Of a stretch of 64,000 bases of DNA, positions 11,654 through 23,986 are shown piece by piece (position 1 is the first letter of the stretch; the number at the start of each line of letters is the position of its first letter). This DNA is from Pseudomonas iranensis (GTDB lineage Bacteria; Pseudomonadota; Gammaproteobacteria; Pseudomonadales; Pseudomonadaceae), in assembly GCF_014268585.2 (NCBI RefSeq), contig NZ_CP077092.1:2480001-2544000 (forward strand), written 5' to 3'. The notes under the pieces are model-generated. The model was not told the origin of the DNA. It saw only the letters and a list, made by a program, of their open reading frames with translations, and did no database searches. A program made the translations under genes and the position numbers.

Positions 11654-12040
11654 TTAAAGCGGGTATTCGCACCGCCATGGAGGTGTGAATGATTCTGAGT
11701 CTATTCCTAGTTTTCCTAGGGTAGTATAGATCTCCTCTTCAGAATTCATTGTGTGTAGGTCGGAAATGTTGATGTCGCGATCGTCAATGCCATCGTTTGT
11801 ATCGATTATCTCGCTAGGTATAGTGAATATTATTAATGCATATTTTGAATTTTTTGATTTGTGAATAAATTCATAATATTGATGTGGGTCGTTCGAAAAT
11901 TTGTACTTGTAAATTGCATATATTGAGGCCCATCTTCGTAGCAATGGGTCTTCTGAGGGGAGTTCCTGTGCAATGTTGTCGTAGCTCGCTCCGTCGAGTC
12001 CATGCCATACACTCCGAGGAATTTTCTTTTGTTCTGTCAT
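11654..12040 (-). CDS. Putative immunity protein for the second Rhs toxin tip
   Basis: 128 residues, acidic, soluble, with base composition clearly more AT-rich than the neighbouring genes. Its ATG overlaps the stop codon of the Rhs fragment at 12037 (ATGA), the usual arrangement for a toxin and its cognate immunity gene. I do not recognise a family. The C-terminal part (DINISDLHTMNSEEEIY) is strongly acidic, which would suit binding to a basic toxin surface; this is inference. Confidence 0.7.
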   Translation of the reverse strand: MTEQKKIPRSVWHGLDGASYDNIAQELPSEDPLLRRWASIYAIYKYKFSNDPHQYYEFIHKSKNSKYALIIFTIPSEIIDTNDGIDDRDINISDLHTMNSEEEIYTTLGKLGIDSESFTPPWRCEYPL

Positions 12041-13257
12041 TTTTGACCTGCAAATGAGTTTGGCCAGTAGATTCGAATTACTTTTCCGTCTTTAGGGTGC
12101 AGTTGTAAATGTGGCATGGCAGCATGTGGGTCGGTAGGGCTGTGATTGGCCATGTAAACCTTCCGAGTTTCAATATCAGACACTGGAGTGTCATCCCAGT
12201 GGTAATAGGATTCTTTTCCTTGAGGTGTTTGGAAGTAATCCTTGGCTGTTACGGAGTTAAATTCTTCAGCATTTCTATATCCCTGCCCTACATATTTTCC
12301 TCTAAACAATTCTTCAGCTTCCGCTCGACTGTTTACCGTAACGTCCTTAGCGCCTTGGTCAAGTTGTGCAGAGGCTCTTTTGACGCTAGGACTTGACCAG
12401 TCCACATCCGGTGGAAGCGGTTCTTTGGTATCGACCTTTGCATTTCCAGTCGTTGTCGTTGGACTTCCTTTTCCATCTCCATCTGGCGGGCACCCGTTCA
12501 GCCCCAACGGATCCACCCACCCCGTAGGGTTCGTCACGTACTGGTAGCTATTCAACCCACCCGCAAGCTTGATCGGATCGGGCGTCAAAAACCGTCCAGT
12601 TCCCGGATTGTAGTAGCGGTGACGGTTGTAATGTAAGCCTGTCTCCGCGTCGAAATACTGACCTTGGAAGCGCAGCGGATTATCGATTTCGCTGACATCC
12701 AGCGCAGCGAGGTTGCCGTACGCTCGGTACCTCGCGGACCACATGATTTCGCCGCTGTAGTCGGTGAGCTCTTGCGGAGTGCCGAGGTGGTCGAGTTGGT
12801 AGTAGAACGGGGCCGCTTTTAGCGGGCCTTCGCCGTCGAGCATTGCCAACGGGCGGAAGGTGCCCGGTTCGTAGATGTAACTGCGGTAGCGGTTCTCGGC
12901 GCTTTCAGCGATGAGGCGTTCGCCTTGCCATAGAAATTCAGTGGTATGGCCGTCGACGGTTTTCTCGATGCGGCGGCCAAAGGCGTCGTATTTGTAGCTT
13001 GCGGTGCTGCCACCCGGCAGGCTGACGCCGATCAGGCGGTGCTGGCAGTCGTAGCGGTACTCGGTGACGAGCTTTTGGCCGGTGCCACGGCGTTCGCGGA
13101 TCAGGTTGCCGTAGGCGTCGTAATCGTAATGGCGGTCGCCTTGCATCAGCAGGCGGTTGCCTTTGACGTTTGCGGGGTTCGCAACGGGCAGGTCATTTTG
13201 TCCGAGGAGGTTGCCTGCCGGGTCGTGAGCGAAGCTCTCTGGCATGGCGCCGCGCAC
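12037..13257 (-). CDS. Displaced Rhs C-terminal cassette: core fragment plus toxin tip (second cassette)
   Basis: The open frame holds the end of an Rhs core, with YD repeats, the RFLTPDPIKLAGGLNSYQYV segment and the DPLGL junction, then a tip of about 150 residues. Core homology continues upstream to about 13540, but one extra base near 13421 breaks the frame, and there is no natural start codon, so 13257 is only where the frame can nominally begin. The tip has conserved-looking stretches (AEELFRGKYVGQGYRN, YYHWDDTP, PHLQLHPKDGKVIRIYW) with several His and acidic residues typical of nucleases; I cannot name its family. It is probably silent unless recombined onto the full-length gene. Confidence 0.8.
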   Translation of the reverse strand: MRGAMPESFAHDPAGNLLGQNDLPVANPANVKGNRLLMQGDRHYDYDAYGNLIRERRGTGQKLVTEYRYDCQHRLIGVSLPGGSTASYKYDAFGRRIEKTVDGHTTEFLWQGERLIAESAENRYRSYIYEPGTFRPLAMLDGEGPLKAAPFYYQLDHLGTPQELTDYSGEIMWSARYRAYGNLAALDVSEIDNPLRFQGQYFDAETGLHYNRHRYYNPGTGRFLTPDPIKLAGGLNSYQYVTNPTGWVDPLGLNGCPPDGDGKGSPTTTTGNAKVDTKEPLPPDVDWSSPSVKRASAQLDQGAKDVTVNSRAEAEELFRGKYVGQGYRNAEEFNSVTAKDYFQTPQGKESYYHWDDTPVSDIETRKVYMANHSPTDPHAAMPHLQLHPKDGKVIRIYWPNSFAGQK

Positions 13258-13710: not shown

Positions 13711-14052
13711 TCAATTTTCGCGCATGTATTGCTCTATTTTCTCAATATATTTTTTTTTGCATGTTGTTCGGAATATTTCCAAGGTTTTGGCAGAGTCGCC
13801 GATTGGTTCGCCTTTTCGATCGTATTTAATTGTAAGAAACTCTACCACGAACTCGCCCTTTGGGTCTCCCTCAGGTTCTACTCTAGAATCGAAGCAATAG
13901 CCTGTGCTTTGTCTTGCACCACCTAATAAAACAGAACTGCTAAACCAGTGCGCGGTTTCCGGTGTTAGTTCTATTTCGTACAAATTATTTATGGTTATTG
14001 TCCAGTCACTAGGCACTCGGAGTGGCTGTAGTTCGAATTCTAGTTTTTTCAT
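13711..14052 (-). CDS. Putative immunity protein for the full-length Rhs toxin
   Basis: 113 residues, soluble, AT-rich, with its ATG overlapping the stop of the rhs gene (ATGA). The C-terminus is Lys-rich (CKKKYIEKIEQYM). No family is recognised. It sits exactly where the immunity gene is expected in hcp-vgrG-tap-rhs islands. The 165 bp after its stop, up to the next Rhs remnant at about 13545, are AT-rich with no coding feature I can support. Confidence 0.7.
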   Translation of the reverse strand: MKKLEFELQPLRVPSDWTITINNLYEIELTPETAHWFSSSVLLGGARQSTGYCFDSRVEPEGDPKGEFVVEFLTIKYDRKGEPIGDSAKTLEIFRTTCKKKYIEKIEQYMREN

Positions 14053-17000
14053 TTTGCTTTACCCATGTATTTTTTCACTTGCTGTGGTGATGCCGGAAAG
14101 CTGTGGATCACAGGCTTATTTCCTCCATCAGTTAGTTCAATTCTTATCCAGTTTGTAAGTTGTCCCTCGTTGTAGCCCACAGGGTGTTCGGATCTGTAAA
14201 ACATGAATCGAGTGCCACCGTGGTCGAATACGTTTCCATCTTTTATCGCCCCATATGCAGCTTGTTTTTCGAATCCTTTAACATTGTTTGCGATGTCGGG
14301 CAGATAAGAAGCTTCGGGTTGACCACCACGTGATCCATTACCCAAACTCAATTCTCTGGCTTGGTCGGCAGATTTCGCATTCAGATGTTTCGTTTTATGG
14401 AAACCTCCTGGCCTCTGCGCGTTATAGACGTCGGATCTTAACTCTTTCCGCGTCTGGTAATCGCTAGTGTCAACGCGCTTGGGAGGGCAGTTATTGCTGC
14501 TCAGCCCCAACGGATCCACCCACCCAGTAGGGTTAGGCACGTACTGGTAGCTATTCAACCCGCCCGCAAGCTTGATCGGATCCGGCGTTAAGAACCGGCC
14601 AGTCCCGGGATTGTAGTAGCGGTGGCGGTTGTAATGTAACCCTGTCTCGGCGTCGAAATACTGCCCTTGAAAACGCAGCGGATTATCGATTTCGCTCACA
14701 TCCAGCGCCGCGAGGTTGCCGTAGGCGCGGTATTTTGCCGACCACATGATTTCGCCGCTGTAGTCGGTCAGTTCCTGCGGCGTGCCGAGGTGGTCGAGTT
14801 GGTAGTAGAACGGGGCCGCTTTTAGCGGGCCTTCGCCGTCGAGCATTGCCAACGGGCGGAAGGTGCCCGGTTCGTAGATGTAACTGCGGTAGCGGTTCTC
14901 GGCGCTTTCAGCGATGAGGCGTTCGCCTTGCCATAGAAATTCAGTGGTATGGCCGTCGACGGTTTTCTCGATGCGGCGGCCAAAGGCGTCGTATTTGTAG
15001 CTTGCGGTGCTGCCACCCGGCAGGCTGACGCCGATCAGGCGGTGCTGGCAGTCGTAGCGGTACTCGGTGACGAGCTTTTGGCCGGTGCCACGGCGTTCGC
15101 GGATCAGGTTGCCGTAGGCGTCGTAATCGTAATGGCGGTCGCCTTGCATCAGCAGGCGGTTGCCTTTGACGTTTGCGGGGTTCGCAACGGGCAGGTCATT
15201 TTGTCCGAGGAGGTTGCCTGCCGGGTCGTGAGCGAAGCTCTCTGGCATGGCGCCGCGCACGCTGATCAGGCGATCCAGCGGGTCGTAGTGATAGCTGCGG
15301 TTGCCTTTGCGGCTGTCGTTAATGCCGGCAAGGTTGCCGTTGGCATCGTAGTTGTAGCGACGCTGGAGCAGGTGCTCGTCCCGCTGGCTGACACTGTGTG
15401 CTTGAAGTCGGCCCTGTTCGTCGTATTGGTACTGGCTGAGCAGCAAGCCTTGTTGGCGCTGTTGTTCGCGGCCGGCACTGAACTGGTGGCTGGTCAGGCG
15501 CGAGCCGTTGAGGTCGATGCTGCTGAGTTGCCCGCCAGGTTGGTGGCGGTAATCGAGTTTGCTGCCATCGGGCAAACGGCAGTGCTTGAGCTGGCCGACG
15601 CTGTCGTATTCGTAGCGCAGAGTGCCCCAGCCTTGGTGTTCCTCGATGAGTCGGTCTTGGAGATCGTATTTGTAGGCGAGCGGCCAATGGCCGTCGTCAA
15701 CGTTAACGAGGCGGCCAAGCGCGTCGTAGCTGTAGTGAATCTCTTCGCCGTCGGGTAGCGTTTTTACAAGCAGACGACCTGCGGCGTCACGCTGATATTC
15801 GGTGACCAGTTCGCTGCCGTCATCGCCGAACTCGGCTTTCTTCAGCAGTTGGCCGTTGAGGTCGTACTCGTAGGCGGTCCGACGACCATCGAAGCCTGTT
15901 TCCTGTTGGATCAGGCCGTTGGCGTAGTAATCGAGGTGGTAGTGCTCGCCGCGCTCGTTTTCGATTTCAGTGAGCAGCAGGCGCGAGTTGTCGTAGCGAT
16001 AGCGCAGTTGGCTGCCGTCGGGATTGATGCGGCGGCTGACGAGGTGAAGATTGTTGGCATATTCATAGCGGGTGATACGGCCAAGTTCGTCACGTTCAGC
16101 AGTGACATTGCCGTAGGCGTTGTAGCTGAATGCGCGAGTGGCGCCGCCGGGCAGCGTAACTTGGGCAAGGCGATTGGCAGCATCCCATTGGTAATGAGTG
16201 ATCGCGCCGGACTCTTCCTGGCGAGTGATCTGCCTGCCTAGTGCATCGTAACGGTACTTGCGCTGACCGCCGTCGGGAAGACGTTCTTCAAGCAGTTGAC
16301 CGAGATTGTTCCAACCGAGTTGATGACGGCTGCCGTCCGGGTGACGGATTTCCAACAGACGACCCTGCGGGTCATAGCTGTAATGGGTGGCATTGCCGTC
16401 CGGGTCAATCTGCGCAGTGACATCACCCTGTCGGTTGCGTTGATACTTCCAACTGGCTTTGCCGCGACGAACGTCGCTGACGAAGCCGTTGATATATTCG
16501 TAAGTTGTAGCTTCGTCTTCTGGGGGGATGACAGCGGTCATCAGTCCGTTGTCGTCGTAGCGGTATTCGGTAACGGCGCCCAATGGGTCCTTTTCCGCGA
16601 TCAATTGACCCTTGTCGTTATAGGCTTTTTGATGCTCGGCACCATCGGGATCAATTTTGCTGATCAGTCGCGCCTGATCATCGTGGGTGTAGACCTCTTC
16701 GCTACCATCGGCGTTGGTAACGGTAACGCTGCCTTTGTCGTCCCAGGCGTATTGCGCTTCCATCTGGGAAAAGTTGGCCCAGTGACGTGTACACCGAGAC
16801 AGTTTGCCTTCGTTTTCCCACTCCCAGTAGAACGCCGCGCCGCCTGCCAATTGCCGCTCGAGAATGACGTGCTGGTCGTTGTAGCGATAGCGTTCGGCTT
16901 CGTCGGCGGCATTCTTCGCCTCGATCAGGCGATGCTGCGTGTCGTAGCTGTAAGTGACCAGCGTCTGCACTGTGTTCCATGCGGCCTCAAGATTGTCCGC

Positions 17001-18740
17001 TGGCAGGAACTGTTGATAGTCGACGGCGATGATGTGCTTGCGATCGTAGCGCAGGAGCAGGGCGCGGCCGGCACCGTTGTCGAGACGTTTGATGCGCCCA
17101 TGGATGTCTCGAGTAACGTGCAAGCGGTTGCCATAGCTATCGCTGATGGCGATCAGGGTCGCGCCTTTGCTGTCGAAGCGGAAGTGATAGAACGATGGTC
17201 GCTTGCCAGCCTGCGCGAGAATCAGCTCGGATGGATCGTCACCTAGAAAAATGGCCGCGTGCGATAGGCTGTTGGTGATGGCGGGACGCTGCTCGCTCGG
17301 AAGTGGGAGAACGGTGGAGCGGTTTTCCTGATCGGTCCAGATGACTTCATCGCCATTGATCTCGATGCGATGAGCGAGCGCGTGGCTCCAGCCATAGCCG
17401 AGACCGCAGTCGATTTCCACAGCACTGGTGCGATAGAGGCGGCTCCATTCAAACGGGAGCAGGCCGTCGAGGTGGCCGTCAGTTAACGTCAGTAATTCTT
17501 CGCCAGTGACCATCGAAACAGGGCAGCCGCTAGTGCAAGTCTTTGCAGCAGGCTCTGCGCTCTTTTCGGCGGGATTTGTCGCCTGGGTCGATACATCATC
17601 AGCGACTCTGCCTTCAGCAAGTCTGGCGTTTCTCTTGCCATCAAAACGCAACTCGGAAATCCCGTTCCTGACCTTCGCCGTCACCCCTCGGGCCGCCACT
17701 GCGGTGTACTTGGCGACATACTCCATAAAGCCGTTGATGATCTTGAACACCGACTTCACGAAGCCGATCACAGCCTTGATGACAAGCTCTCCGTACTTCT
17801 TCAGTCGGGCCGCAAGGTAGATGACGCCGGTACCTTCTGCCGCGATGGTCAATACCACGCCGATCACGATGTCGATTGCAATGCCTACGACAATGGCCGT
17901 GGTCATCTTCGCTACATCACCCGCCATCTTCATCGGCGGCAAGCCCGCCAGCCAGATTACCGCACTGCGTACCAGCAAAAACAAAGCCGCTTCGTCACTG
18001 GCCAGCAACATGGCTTTTTTCATGATGTCAGGCGAGCTTTTGGCGACTTTGATCAGCTCGTCTGCGCCAGCGCCGAGATCTTTCGCAAACTTTCCTGGGT
18101 CCTGGAGGATGTCGAGCACGAGACTGATGCCGTCCCACACGCCCTTGATCGCTTCCCAGCCACCTTCAAGAATGCCGTTGCCGATGGCCATGGCTGTGCC
18201 GGAGGTCGAAAGATTCGACCATTGCGGTTTGAAGCCGGCCCATTCCTTGCGCAGGAAACCTTCAAGGTCCGCAGTCACGCCGCTGTAAGAACTGAAGAGG
18301 GCGTTGATCTGCGCCGGGGTCACTTCGTTATGGACGCGAATTGTGTAGAACTTGCCGGGCATACCGCCGGTCCATGCGGCTTTGCCTTGGGCGTCGAGTT
18401 TGACCTTGCTGACAGCACCACCGTCCACGGCCACGATTTCGACTTCGATATCGCCGACGGGAATGTCGTAAACCGATTCGAATTTGCTTTCGATCAGCAA
18501 CGGACCCTTGAGCGGACATTGAGCTACGTTCGAGGTGAAGTTACCGTCGGTCATGCTCACTGCTTTACTGGTGTTGCCCACCTTGATGGCACGCTCCATA
18601 CCCAACAAGGACGGCATGTCAGCGGCACGGCTACCCTTGTCGAGGGCCTGTGCGTACCAGGTTTTGGTTTGTTCCTGATACAGCTTCAAACTGTCCTTGA
18701 AGGTGTTCAGTTGGTTGTCAACAAAGGCAACGCGATCCAT
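14049..18740 (-). CDS. Full-length Rhs-repeat polymorphic toxin (type VI secretion effector)
   Basis: 1563 residues. The N-terminal ~400 residues include a hydrophobic region (about 285-320) that may help the toxin enter or pass a membrane. A DUF6531-type segment (CPVSMVTGEELL and on, near 410-480) opens the Rhs shell; many YD repeats follow (about 540-1300), and the core ends with the RFLTPDP and DPLGL motifs near residue 1412, where Rhs proteins cleave off their tip. The last ~150 residues are the toxin. It contains HKTKHLNAK, FMFYRSEHPVGY and VIHSFPAS stretches, with several His that could be catalytic, but I cannot place it in a known toxin family. Its start overlaps the stop of the DUF4123 gene, and an immunity gene overlaps its end. 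Confidence 0.92.
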   Translation of the reverse strand: MDRVAFVDNQLNTFKDSLKLYQEQTKTWYAQALDKGSRAADMPSLLGMERAIKVGNTSKAVSMTDGNFTSNVAQCPLKGPLLIESKFESVYDIPVGDIEVEIVAVDGGAVSKVKLDAQGKAAWTGGMPGKFYTIRVHNEVTPAQINALFSSYSGVTADLEGFLRKEWAGFKPQWSNLSTSGTAMAIGNGILEGGWEAIKGVWDGISLVLDILQDPGKFAKDLGAGADELIKVAKSSPDIMKKAMLLASDEAALFLLVRSAVIWLAGLPPMKMAGDVAKMTTAIVVGIAIDIVIGVVLTIAAEGTGVIYLAARLKKYGELVIKAVIGFVKSVFKIINGFMEYVAKYTAVAARGVTAKVRNGISELRFDGKRNARLAEGRVADDVSTQATNPAEKSAEPAAKTCTSGCPVSMVTGEELLTLTDGHLDGLLPFEWSRLYRTSAVEIDCGLGYGWSHALAHRIEINGDEVIWTDQENRSTVLPLPSEQRPAITNSLSHAAIFLGDDPSELILAQAGKRPSFYHFRFDSKGATLIAISDSYGNRLHVTRDIHGRIKRLDNGAGRALLLRYDRKHIIAVDYQQFLPADNLEAAWNTVQTLVTYSYDTQHRLIEAKNAADEAERYRYNDQHVILERQLAGGAAFYWEWENEGKLSRCTRHWANFSQMEAQYAWDDKGSVTVTNADGSEEVYTHDDQARLISKIDPDGAEHQKAYNDKGQLIAEKDPLGAVTEYRYDDNGLMTAVIPPEDEATTYEYINGFVSDVRRGKASWKYQRNRQGDVTAQIDPDGNATHYSYDPQGRLLEIRHPDGSRHQLGWNNLGQLLEERLPDGGQRKYRYDALGRQITRQEESGAITHYQWDAANRLAQVTLPGGATRAFSYNAYGNVTAERDELGRITRYEYANNLHLVSRRINPDGSQLRYRYDNSRLLLTEIENERGEHYHLDYYANGLIQQETGFDGRRTAYEYDLNGQLLKKAEFGDDGSELVTEYQRDAAGRLLVKTLPDGEEIHYSYDALGRLVNVDDGHWPLAYKYDLQDRLIEEHQGWGTLRYEYDSVGQLKHCRLPDGSKLDYRHQPGGQLSSIDLNGSRLTSHQFSAGREQQRQQGLLLSQYQYDEQGRLQAHSVSQRDEHLLQRRYNYDANGNLAGINDSRKGNRSYHYDPLDRLISVRGAMPESFAHDPAGNLLGQNDLPVANPANVKGNRLLMQGDRHYDYDAYGNLIRERRGTGQKLVTEYRYDCQHRLIGVSLPGGSTASYKYDAFGRRIEKTVDGHTTEFLWQGERLIAESAENRYRSYIYEPGTFRPLAMLDGEGPLKAAPFYYQLDHLGTPQELTDYSGEIMWSAKYRAYGNLAALDVSEIDNPLRFQGQYFDAETGLHYNRHRYYNPGTGRFLTPDPIKLAGGLNSYQYVPNPTGWVDPLGLSSNNCPPKRVDTSDYQTRKELRSDVYNAQRPGGFHKTKHLNAKSADQARELSLGNGSRGGQPEASYLPDIANNVKGFEKQAAYGAIKDGNVFDHGGTRFMFYRSEHPVGYNEGQLTNWIRIELTDGGNKPVIHSFPASPQQVKKYMGKAK

Positions 18741-19477
18741 CAGCCTTGCTCCAGAATCAGGTGGTTTATCAATGCTTCTTTAAGATTTTGCGGCGCATCC
18801 GGGCGGCGCACGAAGCGGGTGATTTTCAGCTTCAGATTGTTCTCGGGCCACGCGGTGTAGAGGTCCGGACGGTCTTCTTCCAGCCATTGCATCAGGTTGC
18901 TGACCAGCGTCGCCGGATTGTCCTTGCTCAACCCTTCCAACAACCCCTTCGGCACCTCCCACCACGGCCAGTCCCGCACCTTTGGCACCACCCGCGTGCC
19001 CACTTCCAGCGCCTGCCCATTGATCAGATACCGCTCAAACACCGGCAGCACTTCTCCAGCCTTCTCCCCAAGCCCCCGCAGAATCGGATAAATATGCCGC
19101 CCATCCCAAAACCGGAAAAACACCTCGGTGCCATCCGGCATTTTCACCTGCGTCAGGCTGCGCAGATGTTCGAACACTTCGTTCGGCTCTGAACGCGACA
19201 CCGCCAGCCAGCCCCAGTCGAGGGCGTCGGTTTCGGCGATCCATGGCAGGAAGGCGGAGTTGGCTTTGAGCTCGGTGAGGTAGGGCATCACCGGTTGCCA
19301 GGTGGAGTAGGGCGTGCCGCCCCAGATCGGGATGAGCTGGGCGGTGGGTTCGGTGAGGTACAGGGTTTTCAGGGCGTCTGCATCGCTGGCCGCGCTGACG
19401 ATCAGGTACAGGCGCTCGCCGCTTTGCAGCGGCTGGCGCGCCAGCCAGTCCTTGGGGGTGATTCGTTCAGATGGCAC
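18740..19477 (-). CDS. DUF4123 chaperone (Tap/TEC-type effector adaptor)
   Basis: 245 residues from a GTG at 19477. That start has an AAGGCAGG ribosome site five bases upstream; a GTG at 19510 in the same frame has none. DUF4123 proteins bind a specific effector and load it on its VgrG. The order vgrG-DUF4123-rhs, with a short overlap with vgrG (11 bases) and a TGATG overlap with rhs, is the standard layout. Family features are the conserved aromatic and Trp-rich central part (ETDALDWGWLAVSRSEP, FFRFWDGRHIYPILRGL). Cytoplasmic. The specificity for the Rhs product is inferred from position. Confidence 0.88.
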   Translation of the reverse strand: MPSERITPKDWLARQPLQSGERLYLIVSAASDADALKTLYLTEPTAQLIPIWGGTPYSTWQPVMPYLTELKANSAFLPWIAETDALDWGWLAVSRSEPNEVFEHLRSLTQVKMPDGTEVFFRFWDGRHIYPILRGLGEKAGEVLPVFERYLINGQALEVGTRVVPKVRDWPWWEVPKGLLEGLSKDNPATLVSNLMQWLEEDRPDLYTAWPENNLKLKITRFVRRPDAPQNLKEALINHLILEQG

Positions 19478-21509
19478 AGGCACCTGCCTTGCATTTTTCG
19501 CATTCTTCACAGAATGGCGCGTTACGTTTTAGGGTGTTGATCTGCGCCGGGGTCAGGACTTGGCCAGCCTTGTCGGCATCCGCCTGTTTCAACACGCCGG
19601 GCATCAATGGCGCGGCGCCCGTACCAACGCCCGGGCTACCACCAGAGTTCATGTTGATCACCGGCCCGCTCAGGGTCACGCCGCCAGCATCGATCTTGAT
19701 AAAGCTGCCACCACCCACCAGCGTGAGTTCCGCACCAGCTTCCATCACCACTTTCATGCCGCTGCTCAGGTGGATTTCTTGACCTGCGTCGATGAACTGG
19801 CCGGTGCCGATCTTGATGTGCTGGTTGACGCCGACGGTGAGGTGGTCGTTGGCGCGGGTTTCGACTTTGCGATCGGCGTAGACGGTGTGGTGTTCTTCGG
19901 CTTTGAACTCGGTGTAGCTGTTCTTTTCGACGGTGTCGTGGCGTTCGTTGCCGACGCGGATTTTCTGGTCGTGCTCGATGTTTTCGTCCCAGTCGCGCTG
20001 GGCGTGCAGGTAGATCTGTTCCTGGCCTTTTTTGTCTTCGATGCGCAGTTCGTTGTAGCCGCCACCACCCATCGAACTCAGGGTCTTGAAGGTGCTGCGG
20101 GTCTTGTTCGCCGGCAGTGGATAGGGGACGGTGTTTTCCTTGTGGTACAGGCAGCCGCTGATCAAGGGCTGATCGGGGTCGCCTTCAAGGAAGGTCACCA
20201 GCACTTCCATGCCGATGCGCGGGATGGCGATGCCGCCGTACTGGGCGCCGGCCCAGGCGCTGGAGACGCGCAGCCAGCAGCTGGTCTTGTCGTCGGCCTG
20301 GCCTTCGCGGTCCCAGTGAAACTGGACTTTGACCCGGCCGTATTCGTCGCAGTGGATTTCTTCGCCTTTCGGGCCGGTAACCACCGCGCTCTGGCTGCCG
20401 AGAATGCGCGGTTTCGGATGGCGTAGCGGCGGGCGATTGGGCACGTCCCACGGCGTGGCCTGGAAGCGGTTGCGGTAACCCTGATGGAAATCGTCTTTCA
20501 GCGCGGTGGTGTCGCTGGTCACCGACTCCTCGAGCACTTGCGGTTGCTTGCCTTCATGCAGGACTTCAGTGAGCAGCCAGAGGTCGTTCCATTTGGCTTT
20601 CGGGTGTTCGGTCAGGGCGAGGAAATGGCCGCTGACCAGCAGTGGCTGATCACTCTTGCCTTCGGCCAATTGGAAGTCGCTGCGATGGCGTTCGAGGGCG
20701 CGTTTGGCCAGGTGCTTGCCGCGCTCGCGGTCGATGAAACGGCCCGGGTAATCGTAGTCTTCGAGGTCGGGCAGGGCGTCGCCACGGTTTTCGCTTTCCA
20801 GGGTCAGGCGCGGTTTTTCGAAGTCGTAGTCGCGGCGCGTGGTGCGGCTGGTGCGGGTTTCCAGGCGCAGGTCGAAACGCTTGATCACCGGGTTGCTGGC
20901 GACCATGCCGGAGTCTTGCTGATAGGGCACCGGGGCGAGTTTCGGGAACACCGTCTGGTCATCGCCGAAAACGAGCTTGTGCGCGTTGGCGCTGTGCTGG
21001 AAGTGGAAGTGAATGCCTTCTTCTTCACACAGGCGCTGGATGAAGTGCAGATCCGACTCGTCGTATTGCACGCAGTAGATGCGTTCGGGATAGATCGAGC
21101 CGGTCTTGAATTCGTAGGCGTTGCCTTGAATGCCGTGCTCTTCCAGCACCATGCCGATGATTTTCGGCACGCTGAGGTTCTGAAAGATGCGCTGGTTGAT
21201 GCGGTGCGCGAGGTAGGACAGTTGCGGGCGCAAGGTCACCGAATAACGGGTCAGGCGCTTGCCGGAATCGCCTTGCGCGGCGCGGTAGATCTGGCCATGG
21301 ATGCCGCTGCCGTCAGGCGACAGCTGCAGAAAGGCCGGTTTGTGCAGCAGGGTTTCGAGGTCCAGCGACGGCTGCTCACTGACCAGCTCCACCTCAAAGA
21401 CAAAAGGCTGGCTGATGGCTTCCCGGCCGGTGAGGGTAAACACCTGAAAGTCGGCGGAAAGCCCTTCGATGGTCAGGGCAAAGTGGGTTTCATTGGCCGG
21501 CGCGAACAT
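19467..21509 (-). CDS. vgrG: Type VI secretion tip protein VgrG
   Basis: 680 residues from the ATG at 21509, which is preceded by GAGGAACAAGG; the open frame goes 15 codons further back to a weak TTG. The N-terminal gp27-like part covers about residues 1-380, then an OB-fold (DEYGRVKVQFHWDREG) and the gp5-like needle with short repeats (TEFKAEEHHTVYADRKVETR and on). The last ~40 residues after the needle contain four Cys (FCEECEKCKAGAC), a small extension that could bind metal or dock the chaperone-effector. It forms the membrane-piercing spike that carries the Rhs effector. No sheath or baseplate genes are nearby, so it must use a T6SS encoded elsewhere. Confidence 0.94.
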   Translation of the reverse strand: MFAPANETHFALTIEGLSADFQVFTLTGREAISQPFVFEVELVSEQPSLDLETLLHKPAFLQLSPDGSGIHGQIYRAAQGDSGKRLTRYSVTLRPQLSYLAHRINQRIFQNLSVPKIIGMVLEEHGIQGNAYEFKTGSIYPERIYCVQYDESDLHFIQRLCEEEGIHFHFQHSANAHKLVFGDDQTVFPKLAPVPYQQDSGMVASNPVIKRFDLRLETRTSRTTRRDYDFEKPRLTLESENRGDALPDLEDYDYPGRFIDRERGKHLAKRALERHRSDFQLAEGKSDQPLLVSGHFLALTEHPKAKWNDLWLLTEVLHEGKQPQVLEESVTSDTTALKDDFHQGYRNRFQATPWDVPNRPPLRHPKPRILGSQSAVVTGPKGEEIHCDEYGRVKVQFHWDREGQADDKTSCWLRVSSAWAGAQYGGIAIPRIGMEVLVTFLEGDPDQPLISGCLYHKENTVPYPLPANKTRSTFKTLSSMGGGGYNELRIEDKKGQEQIYLHAQRDWDENIEHDQKIRVGNERHDTVEKNSYTEFKAEEHHTVYADRKVETRANDHLTVGVNQHIKIGTGQFIDAGQEIHLSSGMKVVMEAGAELTLVGGGSFIKIDAGGVTLSGPVINMNSGGSPGVGTGAAPLMPGVLKQADADKAGQVLTPAQINTLKRNAPFCEECEKCKAGACAI

Positions 21510-21643
21510 CCCTTGTTCCTCGTGCTGTACAGCGGCGCTCGTCGACGACCGCAAAAAAGCGGCTCAACGTACGCGAAATTCTGGAGGGGCGTAAACAACA
21601 TCGACCAGCAGAGCTGGCCGATGCGTGTAACGGTCAGCCGTAA

Positions 21644-22159
21644 TTAAACGACTGGAGCACGCCAGTCATCGGAACCCGAAGTACCGGATACTTCGTGGGT
21701 CCAGGTGATTTTGCGGTAGGTGAACTGCACTTCTTCCAGGTGGGTGAAGTGCGCGTTGCCTGGATCCTGGCAGTTGTGCATTTTGTTGTTGATGGCGACG
21801 ATGATCGCGTCTTCCAGTTTGGTGGTGTAGTAGTGCTCTTGGGTGCCTTGAGCCGAAGTGCGGTACCACTGGATAACGATTTCGCTCATGCGCTCGCCGG
21901 AAGTCAGTGCTGCTTGCAGCAGTGGCGAAGCCTTGTCGTAGACCTTGGTGATCACGACTGGCTTGTGTACGCGCTGACCGGTTGGCTGACCGGATTGCGG
22001 GTCACGCGGGATGATCACGTCGTGGGTGAAAGCCTGAACCATGACCTGGTCTTCGTGGCCTTCCTGGTAGGTGTTGCCAACGGAGTCGGCGGTGAAAGCG
22101 CCGGCAGTGATCAGGCCTTGTTTTTCGCCGGTAACCGACATGTACGCTGGTGTTGCCAT
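21644..22159 (-). CDS. hcp: Type VI secretion tube protein Hcp
   Basis: 171 residues, of the Hcp1 family size, starting at the ATG at 22159 behind a strong AAGGAGAG site. Family features are the early AYMSVTGEKQGLI, the middle HKPVVITKVYDKASPLL and the late EEVQFTYRKITWTHE. It forms hexameric rings that stack as the inner tube. It is the first gene of the island, and the promoter described at 22229-22245 lies about 70 bases upstream. The gap to vgrG is about 135 bases, so vgrG may have its own signals or be expressed at a lower level. Confidence 0.95.
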   Translation of the reverse strand: MATPAYMSVTGEKQGLITAGAFTADSVGNTYQEGHEDQVMVQAFTHDVIIPRDPQSGQPTGQRVHKPVVITKVYDKASPLLQAALTSGERMSEIVIQWYRTSAQGTQEHYYTTKLEDAIIVAINNKMHNCQDPGNAHFTHLEEVQFTYRKITWTHEVSGTSGSDDWRAPVV

Positions 22160-22228
22160 GGGGTGCTCTCCTTGCGGATAAAGTTAGGGTGCCCGGAGGC
22201 GAAATCGCCCGGTGGGTGGCTGAGGGTT

Positions 22229-22245
22229 ATCAAGGAGCGTGCCAG
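22229..22245 (-). promoter_or_regulatory. Sigma-54 (-24/-12) promoter upstream of hcp
   Basis: On the minus strand the sequence reads CTGGCACGCTCCTTGAT. This matches the consensus TGGCACG-N4-TTGCA at both boxes except that the -12 box has GA instead of GC. Spacing of the GG and GA dinucleotides is right. Start of transcription would fall near 22218, about 60 bases before the hcp start codon. In P. aeruginosa the second and third T6SS clusters are linked to sigma-54 and dedicated Sfa activators, which fits. Confidence 0.65.
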
Positions 22246-22327
22246 GTTTTGCGCGGTGCCCGGATGGCGGGGGCGCGACGTTGGTTGGTCATCATTCGGG
22301 GCGATTTTCAGCGGAAAAGTCGGGAGG

Positions 22328-22373
22328 AAGTGCGCAAGAAGTTGCGCAGTACTGCGCAACTTCTTGCGCACTT
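22328..22373. promoter_or_regulatory. 46-bp perfect palindrome holding two activator-like boxes
   Basis: Two copies of the 18-bp box TGCGCAAGAAGTTGCGCA lie head to head at 22331-22348 and 22353-22370. Each box is itself an inverted repeat (TGCGCAA, 4 bases, TTGCGCA), and the pair forms one perfect palindrome. It sits 83-145 bases upstream of the -24/-12 promoter, the usual place for an enhancer bound by a sigma-54 activator. Confidence 0.6.
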
Positions 22374-22435
22374 GGCTGCAGGCCCTGACCCGCTTGGGCT
22401 ACGGGGGATTTAGGCCCTGAAATATTACGACCTAC

Positions 22436-22453
22436 TGCGCAACTTCTTGCGCA
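22436..22453. promoter_or_regulatory. Third copy of the 18-bp box
   Basis: TGCGCAACTTCTTGCGCA, the same box as in the palindrome at 22328-22373 but alone, 83 bases further upstream (close to eight turns of DNA). Three identical boxes in 125 bases argue for a protein-binding array. Confidence 0.6.
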
Positions 22454-22522
22454 CAATGGCCAGATGCCTTTGTGGAGGCAAAGATTGCTATGGAGGCAAA
22501 GATTGCCTCATAGCTTCAGATC

Positions 22523-22600
22523 AAAAGATCGCAGCCTGCGGCAGCTCCTACATTTGGAATGCGTTTCCCCTGTAGGAGCTGCCGTAGGCTGCGATCTTTT
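22523..22600. repeat. Pair of inverted REP palindromes (BIME-like)
   Basis: Two copies of the AGCTGCCG-type palindrome face each other (22523-22551 and 22571-22600). They lie just after the stop of the hglS gene and may also slow or end its transcript before the hcp control region. Confidence 0.8.
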
Positions 22601-22606
22601 AATGTT

Positions 22607-23986
22607 TTAACGCGCGAGTCGGGTCAAACACTCCTCAACCGACCGCCGTTGCGTCTCGGCGTACAACCCCAACTCATCAATGGTCGAACGCCCCAGCGCC
22701 TGTTCGAAAGCCTGGCGATTGGAATGTTCGGCGTAATGCGTCTGCGCAGAATCGCCGAGGTTCGACTGAAAAATCCCCGCTGCGCTCACCGGCAGGAAAT
22801 CTTCGTACACCAGCGGCTCCGCTTTCACGTAGCCATCGCGCAGCAAGTCCTCCAGGGACGACTCACCAAGTCCTCCAGCGGCCAAACCCTTTTCCGTGAG
22901 GAAATAACGAAAGTACGCCAGCCCCTGTTCGCGCATGCCCTCAGTGCTGTCAGGAAATTCGGCAAAGTGCTGAGTCATCAGCGCGTCGTAGCGTGCGGCA
23001 TTGGCTTCATTGGGGAAGTCGCCCAGTTCATCGCGAGCGGCATTCAACAAGCGGTCATACAGCGCTCGGCCCTTGGGCGTGAGGGCGGCGCCGCGTTGTT
23101 CGATTTCGCCGAAGCGCGCGCTGTGGCTGCCACGGGTTTCGGGCTGATCGGTGAAGGCGATCGGCTCGTCCAGCGCTTTGAAGCTGGTCTGGCGCAGCAG
23201 GATCGGGCAGTTGCGACGCGGTGGGCCTTCGATCACCGCTTTTGGTGTAATGCCATGGGCAGGCATCTGTTGCTGCACGGTGTCGATGTCCAGCGTGCGT
23301 GGGGTCAGGTGGTTGATGTGCGGGCCTTTGAACGCAACGACATCGGCGATCAAGCGGTGCTGAGCGCTGAGTTTCTGGTACTGCGCGGCGCTGACGGTGG
23401 CGCTGTGGTGCCAGCGAAAAGTCTCCAGTGCCTGTCGGACGAATTCCACGGCCTCCGCTTCATTCAGTCCGCCCGCCGTTTCCGCCTGTTCAATCAGGCG
23501 CAACGCCTCTTCAGTAAAAATCGAACGACGGGCCAGTACCGACTCGGCAAACGAACGCAATTCAGGATCTTCAATCAGCTCCAGGCGCAGCAACGAGGTA
23601 AACACGCGAAACGGGCTGACCTGCAGCGCCTCTTCATGCACCGCGCGAAACGCCGTTGAATGCACCGGCACGCCCGCCGGGGTCAGGTCGTAATAACCCA
23701 CCGGTTGCATGCCCATCACCGCGAACAAGCGGGCGAGGGTGGCCAATTCGGTCGCGGTGCCTACCCGGATGGCGCCGTGGCGTTCCATGTCCAGGCGTTC
23801 GATTTCGCCGGTGCGCTTGAGTTGACCGGCAATGTCAGGCTGACGTGCCAGCACTTCGCAATTGGTTTTCTCCACCAGTTCCATCAGCGCGCCGTACAGC
23901 GGCACCTCTTCGCGGTACATGTCGGACATCGCTCGGGAGAAGCGTTGGCGGATCAGGTCGGGGCTGACGAACGGTTGCACGGTCAT
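22607..23986 (-). CDS. hglS: 2-oxoadipate dioxygenase/decarboxylase HglS (DUF1338, YdcJ family)
   Basis: 459 residues from the ATG at 23986, behind an AGGA site; the frame runs on upstream but that part has no family features. With this start, the metal and substrate residues I recall for HglS fall at the same numbers: His70 and Arg74 in ERHGAIRVG, His226 in GPHINHLT and Glu294 in RFGEIEQ. The enzyme converts 2-oxoadipate, O2 and an internal decarboxylation to D-2-hydroxyglutarate, in the D-lysine/aminoadipate route of Pseudomonas. It is a Fe(II) enzyme of the VOC fold, cytoplasmic. It lies 88 bases after glcF in the same direction and could share its transcript. Confidence 0.92.
   Translation of the reverse strand: MTVQPFVSPDLIRQRFSRAMSDMYREEVPLYGALMELVEKTNCEVLARQPDIAGQLKRTGEIERLDMERHGAIRVGTATELATLARLFAVMGMQPVGYYDLTPAGVPVHSTAFRAVHEEALQVSPFRVFTSLLRLELIEDPELRSFAESVLARRSIFTEEALRLIEQAETAGGLNEAEAVEFVRQALETFRWHHSATVSAAQYQKLSAQHRLIADVVAFKGPHINHLTPRTLDIDTVQQQMPAHGITPKAVIEGPPRRNCPILLRQTSFKALDEPIAFTDQPETRGSHSARFGEIEQRGAALTPKGRALYDRLLNAARDELGDFPNEANAARYDALMTQHFAEFPDSTEGMREQGLAYFRYFLTEKGLAAGGLGESSLEDLLRDGYVKAEPLVYEDFLPVSAAGIFQSNLGDSAQTHYAEHSNRQAFEQALGRSTIDELGLYAETQRRSVEECLTRLAR

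Follow-up and report, generated by a model that had tools for sequence, protein, structure and literature searches.

How does an island of T6SS genes come to be switched on along with a machine that is encoded elsewhere in the genome? Scattered hcp, vgrG and effector islands all face this need, and the window analyzed here (64,000 nucleotides, bases 2480001-2544000 of one 6.07-Mb contig) contains a case in point, an orphan minus-strand operon with the gene order hcp, vgrG, DUF4123 adaptor and rhs (Table 1). Ahead of its hcp gene lie a sigma-54-like -24/-12 element and, further upstream, three 18-bp dyads of the form TGCGCAA-N4-TTGCGCA, called boxes below. We consider it probable that the three boxes are upstream enhancer sites of a sigma-54 promoter that drives the hcp-vgrG-DUF4123-rhs operon, and that they are most likely bound by an activator of the Sfa2/VasH type. 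At the other end of the operon, the C-terminal tail of the rhs protein matched none of the Pfam and NCBIfam families. A second rhs C-terminal fragment with another tail lies downstream of the full rhs gene (12037-13257), with a small open frame behind it (11654-12040), and by their sequence these look like an alternative Rhs tip and a putative immunity gene.

Table 1. Features of the orphan hcp island and its upstream region (window coordinates)
Feature	Position	Strand	Pfam match or placement	Conservation
rhs protein	14049..18740	minus	PF05593, PF03527, PF20148	
DUF4123 adaptor/chaperone	18740..19510	minus	PF13503	
vgrG (spike)	19467..21554	minus	PF05954, PF04717, PF22178	
hcp (T6SS tube protein, 171 aa)	21644..22159	minus	PF05638	
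Ribosome binding site AAGGAG	22168..22173	minus		conserved among relatives
Sigma-54-like -24/-12 element CTGGCACGCTCCTTGAT (GG-N10-GA)	22229..22245	minus		conserved among relatives
46-bp perfect palindrome	22328..22373		middle and proximal boxes	
Proximal box, inverted copy	22331..22348		from -190 (hcp ATG); starts 22 bp from middle box	conserved
Middle box	22353..22370		from -212 (hcp ATG)	conserved
Distal box TGCGCAACTTCTTGCGCA	22436..22453		-295 to -278 from hcp ATG	conserved

All three boxes in the window match TGCGCAANNNNTTGCGCA exactly, and they are copies of a single 18-mer two in one orientation and the third, at 22331, in the opposite one. The original prediction had named these three boxes, a perfect palindrome formed by two of them and a minus-strand element about 70 bp ahead of hcp, and each of these is borne out. 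Three exact boxes in this window are far beyond chance; when up to two mismatches were allowed the window gave 6 sites against 1.09 expected, a number reached in 1 of 100 shuffles. Measured from the -24 element, the array extends upstream from 86 bp (end of the proximal box) to 209 bp (start of the distal box). Enhancer sites of sigma-54 promoters lie some 80-200 bp upstream, a range that the distance of the window array fits, and this spacing is conserved in relatives.

Exact copies of TGCGCAANNNNTTGCGCA are present at six places in the 6.07-Mb genome, and these make up two arrays of three. The second array (boxes at 1403200, 1403222 and 1403305) has spacing equal to that of the window array and precedes a second orphan hcp gene (G000:C1:1402516-1403028) whose protein is identical to the window Hcp; with up to one mismatch the genome search gave 23 places, compared with 1 for the backwards pattern. 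In a comparison of 1519 aligned columns the islands are identical at 96.7%. Although the query ran 1500 bases further, the BLAST match between them stops exactly where the distal box does, so that the outermost box marks the boundary of the shared module. Within the 294 bp from hcp to the end of the distal box the islands differ at 20 positions, all of them outside both the boxes and the -24/-12 element. If the count is restricted to bases upstream of the element, the two promoters differ at 18 of 154 non-box positions, compared with 0 of 54 in the boxes (Fisher P 0.004). We also note short repeats, on the distal side of the second island, that have matches at several places in the window. The genome has three relatives of the window Hcp, the two orphans and one that is 53% identical and lies near the other tssC. 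When up to four mismatches were allowed, no box was found in the 420 bp upstream of this third hcp or in the 726 bp that precede the main cluster's tssA frame. The check named in the original prediction, a search for the box in the rest of the genome, thus finds it ahead of the second orphan hcp and not at the main-cluster tssA or the third hcp.

Conservation ahead of related hcp genes was followed among the best 80 of 394 hcp relatives, all of them Pseudomonas, of which 76 have at least 320 bp of upstream sequence (the four shorter ones were left out of the box count). When up to two mismatches are allowed, 75 of these 76 loci have three boxes, no more and no fewer, and the remaining locus has four. 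The middle and proximal boxes are spaced 22 bp apart in 74 of the 75 and the distal and middle boxes 82-83 bp apart in 73, and TGGCACGNNNNTTG is found with no more than one mismatch in 73 of the 76. A second set, chosen from all fetched loci to reduce shared ancestry, consists of 48 upstream regions less than 72% identical; hcp matches were left out of it if they were below 68% identity, began late or had under 330 bp of upstream sequence, and L160, which is misaligned by an insertion, was kept. Across these 48 regions the window's base is shared at 90% in the half-sites, 67% in the cores, 79% in the -24/-12 element and 92% in the ribosome binding site, compared with 45% in the other 251 columns. 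The insertion in L160 has moved its array upstream, to about 0.8 kb from the -24/-12 element. Between array and promoter, 29 of the 48 regions carry an IHF-like site (at most one mismatch) in one orientation against 1.7 in mononucleotide shuffles, and 23 of these 29 sites fall within five positions, -119 to -115; in the other orientation the count is 5 of 48, with about 2.6 expected. The window promoter has no IHF-like site in this interval, its best match having four mismatches.

Such fixed placement bears on whether the boxes might be a mobile or structural repeat of some kind (a REP, a phage or recombination site, or a cruciform), an idea to which the palindrome and the end of the inter-island match at the distal box lend some color. 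The spacing to hcp is fixed in nearly all loci, which counts against it, and where a repeat would be expected in many scattered copies the genome holds six exact ones in the two hcp arrays. A REP-like inverted repeat (33-nt arms, 94%) does lie at 22520-22603, in the stretch that separates the distal box from the next gene, but its sequence is different, and the boxes were rejected as copies of it. No phage match was found. The middle and proximal boxes have 4-base cores that mirror each other as reverse complements in 56 of 75 loci (among the best 80 of 394 relatives) against 38 in shuffles, which would also suit a repeat; since this mirroring holds in only 12 of 26 distinct pairs we treat it as an aside, and it may perhaps reflect palindrome correction or relatedness, with the CTTC/GAAG orientation swapped between loci. 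The random scatter or restriction to REP-like repeats that would have told against the original prediction is thus not what the genome displays, and we find a repeat of this kind hardly credible as an account of the boxes.

The -24/-12 element, TGGCACGCTCCTTGAT, lies 69 bp ahead of the hcp ATG (22159) and has the pattern TGGCACG-N4-TTGAT. The GG at -24 is present within TGGCAC. The -12 dinucleotide is GA, not GC, and the RpoN feature of a GC ten bases after the GG is therefore absent; since the available text of PMC9993120 defines the minimal RpoN site as GG-N10-GC, the window element fails that definition. The absence of the GC pair would suit a reading in which the boxes are repressor operators, transcription starts at a sigma-70-type promoter and the TGGCAC element is incidental, and the same text says that transcription of most T6SS genes is sigma-70-dependent (PMC9993120). 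The string alone is no guide here, a match as good having been found in 75 of 100 shuffles; taken by itself it could be chance, and its support comes from conservation. When the best TGGCAC match near -85 was picked as the element in each of the 48 diverged regions, TGG was present in all 48 and the -13 G in 47, which an incidental element would not lead one to expect, and the base after TTG was A in 35, C in 7, T in 3 and G in 3. A GC does stand at -12, in the same place, in four of five loci whose hcp is 72-73% identical (L214-L217; L218 is without it), and this too speaks for a sigma-54 element. A location upstream of the promoter is moreover a better fit for activator sites than for operators. 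No sigma-70-like match was found in 22130-22640, which is weak evidence since shuffles gave 0.2. We therefore regard repressor operators as very improbable, and prefer to see the element as a sigma-54 promoter with what its relatives suggest is a lineage-specific change at -12. A third TGGCACG-N4-TTGAT in the genome, at 2615013, was taken as chance because it lies inside a long open frame and no box is listed nearby.

If the boxes are enhancer sites, a candidate for the protein that binds them is encoded in T6SS cluster 1 of the same genome (about 58-93 kb), which has tssC, vgrG and a bEBP gene, with clpV, FHA, tssA, tssB, tssE, tssF, tssG, tssK and tssM named by eye from translations. The bEBP is sfa2-like (G000:C1:78852-80381; L024:2852-4381, minus strand) and has matches to PF00158 (AAA+ sigma-54 interaction) and PF02954 (Fis-type HTH); its GAF match is weak and below the cut-off, and the domain search found no receiver domain. 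The genome search placed no relative of the window Hcp in cluster 1, and the orphan Hcp presumably serves that cluster. To judge from its layout, which resembles those of F2-T6SS (F113) and HSI-II (P. syringae), cluster 1 is probably of the H2 type. Within the cluster 1 loci, the sequences closest to the box (L024:7590 and L026:2387) differ from it by two mismatches, and both fall in long open frames.

Box pairs and the activator gene tend to occur in the same genomes. A pair of boxes 22 bp apart, with up to three mismatches, occurs in 131 of 398 genus genomes, with no occurrence of the backwards pattern among the matches listed. The pair is present in 116 of the 159 genomes with an Sfa2 N-terminal match and in 15 of the 239 others, and in 72 of the 74 with a match of 1e-100 or better; the cut-off of 1e-54 was picked after the values had been seen, and some co-occurrence would be expected in any case, since the genomes are related and hcp depends on its machine. 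Among the 159 sfa2-bearing genomes, 43 failed the pair pattern, and weaker boxes were found in three of these, G128 and G366 having decayed boxes at the same positions ahead of hcp and G117 a pair ahead of hcp under a looser pattern. The recognition helix of Sfa2 was much the same in box-positive and box-negative genomes, with no telling differences, and so no co-variation of specificity is seen.

The 15 box-bearing genomes with no Sfa2 match as good as 1e-54 have to be weighed against this, since boxes that persist without Sfa2 would point to the enhancer array of another regulator, either a different bEBP of the genome or a global regulator. Two of them (G105 and G387) have a distant Sfa match at about 1e-49 and the other 13 show none at 1e-10. 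Leaving aside G222, which is fragmentary, 12 of these 13 remain, and all 14 of their pairs lie directly ahead of hcp. Candidates for such a regulator are not scarce, the genome having 20 strong matches to the sigma-54 activator domain of which sfa2 is just one, and FleQ and AmrZ are described in the available text of PMC7970981 as affecting T6SS genes in P. fluorescens F113. However, the tssC search in the same 12 genomes found none that is intact and close: eight gave no match, three gave 41-42%, and G324 gave 93% over 387 of 491 residues, while as controls four box-bearing genomes gave 88-100% and two box-free genomes 40% and 66%. The genomes G315 and G317 are 78% and 87% complete. A full-length Sfa2 search of the 12 was empty but had no positive control, and the N-terminal search is relied on instead. 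With no Sfa2 match and no intact, close tssC, activator and machine seem to be missing together from these genomes, and their islands look like leftovers. A global regulator should in addition have more than two target loci, and apart from those at the two hcp copies the genome has no exact boxes. Control by a regulator other than Sfa2 strikes us as unlikely, and we continue with Sfa2 as the probable ligand of the boxes.

The pair is not confined to hcp genes or to this genus. A looser pair pattern was found in 86 of 298 family genomes and in 8 of 19 genera; the sets of genomes used in this work overlap in part. From among the places where pairs occur, 71 loci were fetched; 57 hold hcp, seven have contig ends near the boxes (L136, L139, L149, L275, L282, L292 and L295), and seven others remain. 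In L143 the pair lies ahead of a VasX_N gene and in L155 ahead of a PAAR gene, both without hcp, and in L192 and L286 it accompanies large open frames that by eye resemble the frame behind the PAAR gene of L155 (a Pfam search with the large frame of L192 gave no match). On their sequence, these four are candidates for unlinked cargo of the same T6SS machine. In L202 a box array and TGGCATGGACCTTGAT stand ahead of a frame that is thioredoxin-like by eye, with no hcp seen in a genome (G222) that is 73% complete, and the pairs of L284 and L287 look like chance matches. A further island lies on a 371-kb mobilizable plasmid of P. frederiksbergensis (NZ_CP017887.1, L247), where an hcp-vgrG pair has three boxes with 1, 2 and 0 mismatches.

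The spacing of the array and the -24/-12 element suits an enhancer-dependent promoter, and from it we infer a sequence of events in which Sfa2 dimers would occupy the middle and proximal boxes, whose 22-bp spacing amounts to two helical turns, with another dimer on the distal box about eight turns further. A DNA loop of some 90 bp, which in many relatives would include an IHF-like site, would then bring the activator to RpoN-RNA polymerase at -24/-12. The original prediction had read the boxes as an activator's binding array and the island as switched on by RpoN together with a T6SS encoded elsewhere; the recurrence of the box at orphan hcp genes, its spacing and the sigma-54 activator in a cluster elsewhere support that reading, while the GA at -12 and the lack of a box at the main tssA do not, and binding by Sfa2 and dependence on RpoN are predictions of it. 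More tentatively, as something possible rather than probable, TGCGCAA-N4-TTGCGCA arranged as a 22-bp-spaced pair plus a third site might be the recognition code of Sfa2, and might form the upstream border of a module, complete in itself with enhancer, promoter and hcp or effector, that moves among chromosome sites and plasmids, so that an island would join the machine's regulon on arrival; the conserved, weakened -12 (GA) would keep the promoter off without the activator. If this were so, the box could be read genome by genome for the unlinked cargo genes of a T6SS type, and the VasX_N and PAAR examples suggest that the dyad would give such a sequence handle.

Among known systems, NtrC enhancer sites are dyads of similar length with TGC outer half-sites and are bound by a Fis-type HTH; they differ from the window boxes in their inner bases, and no receiver domain was found in the activator of the window genome. 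The closest solved Hcp, 3he1, which we take to be from P. aeruginosa, is 87% identical to the window Hcp over 170 residues. A direct link to the P. aeruginosa promoter was not made because no fetched locus encodes the exact 3he1 Hcp (the best is 95.3%). In the literature searched, with most subscription papers and all supplements outside it, no defined Sfa2 or VasH site was found, and neither full 18-mer letter string is present among the matches listed.

In Vibrio, VasH, sigma-54 and IHF drive hcp operons (PMC5963220, PMC10482370), and the likeness is that an activator drives hcp operons outside the core cluster (PMC5963220). An IHF site lies upstream of the sigma-54 element there, whereas the window promoter has no IHF-like site, and the available text gives no sequence for the VasH site (PMC5963220). 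The F2-T6SS of P. fluorescens F113 is similar in having a cluster with sfa2 and an hcp2 elsewhere in the genome, and the word "promoter" is absent from the available main text of that paper (PMC7970981). The layout of cluster 1 is also like that of HSI-II of P. syringae, where Sfa2 acts on the main T6SS operons and Hcp2 is absent or little without it (PMC7283901); the lack of a box at the main-cluster tssA of the window genome does not sit easily with such action on main operons. Reports on RpoN are not uniform: an earlier P. aeruginosa study has RpoN repressing, with no RpoN consensus at H2-T6SS in the text available (PMC3804575), and a predicted RpoN box of the P. putida K1-T6SS, again in a source available in part, proved to be without effect.

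The nearest parallel is the set of hcp2ABC-vgrG islands of P. aeruginosa, which are likewise orphan, with sfa2 in the H2-T6SS cluster and an RpoN site and repeats ahead of hcp (PMC8855297); the sfa2-bearing cluster of the window genome differs in being without hcp. An RpoN ChIP signal lies ahead of those islands and their expression is lost in sfa2 and rpoN mutants (PMC8855297), so control of orphan hcp islands by RpoN and Sfa2 is already known in kind. Conserved or inverted repeats upstream of the islands are mentioned there as possible regulator sites with the binder not assigned, and the single site that ChIP found for Sfa2 lay about 2 kb from a promoter, with no clear site at the islands, according to the available text (PMC8855297). 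The 18-bp dyad with its fixed spacing is a candidate for the Sfa2 site that ChIP did not clearly locate in P. aeruginosa (PMC8855297).
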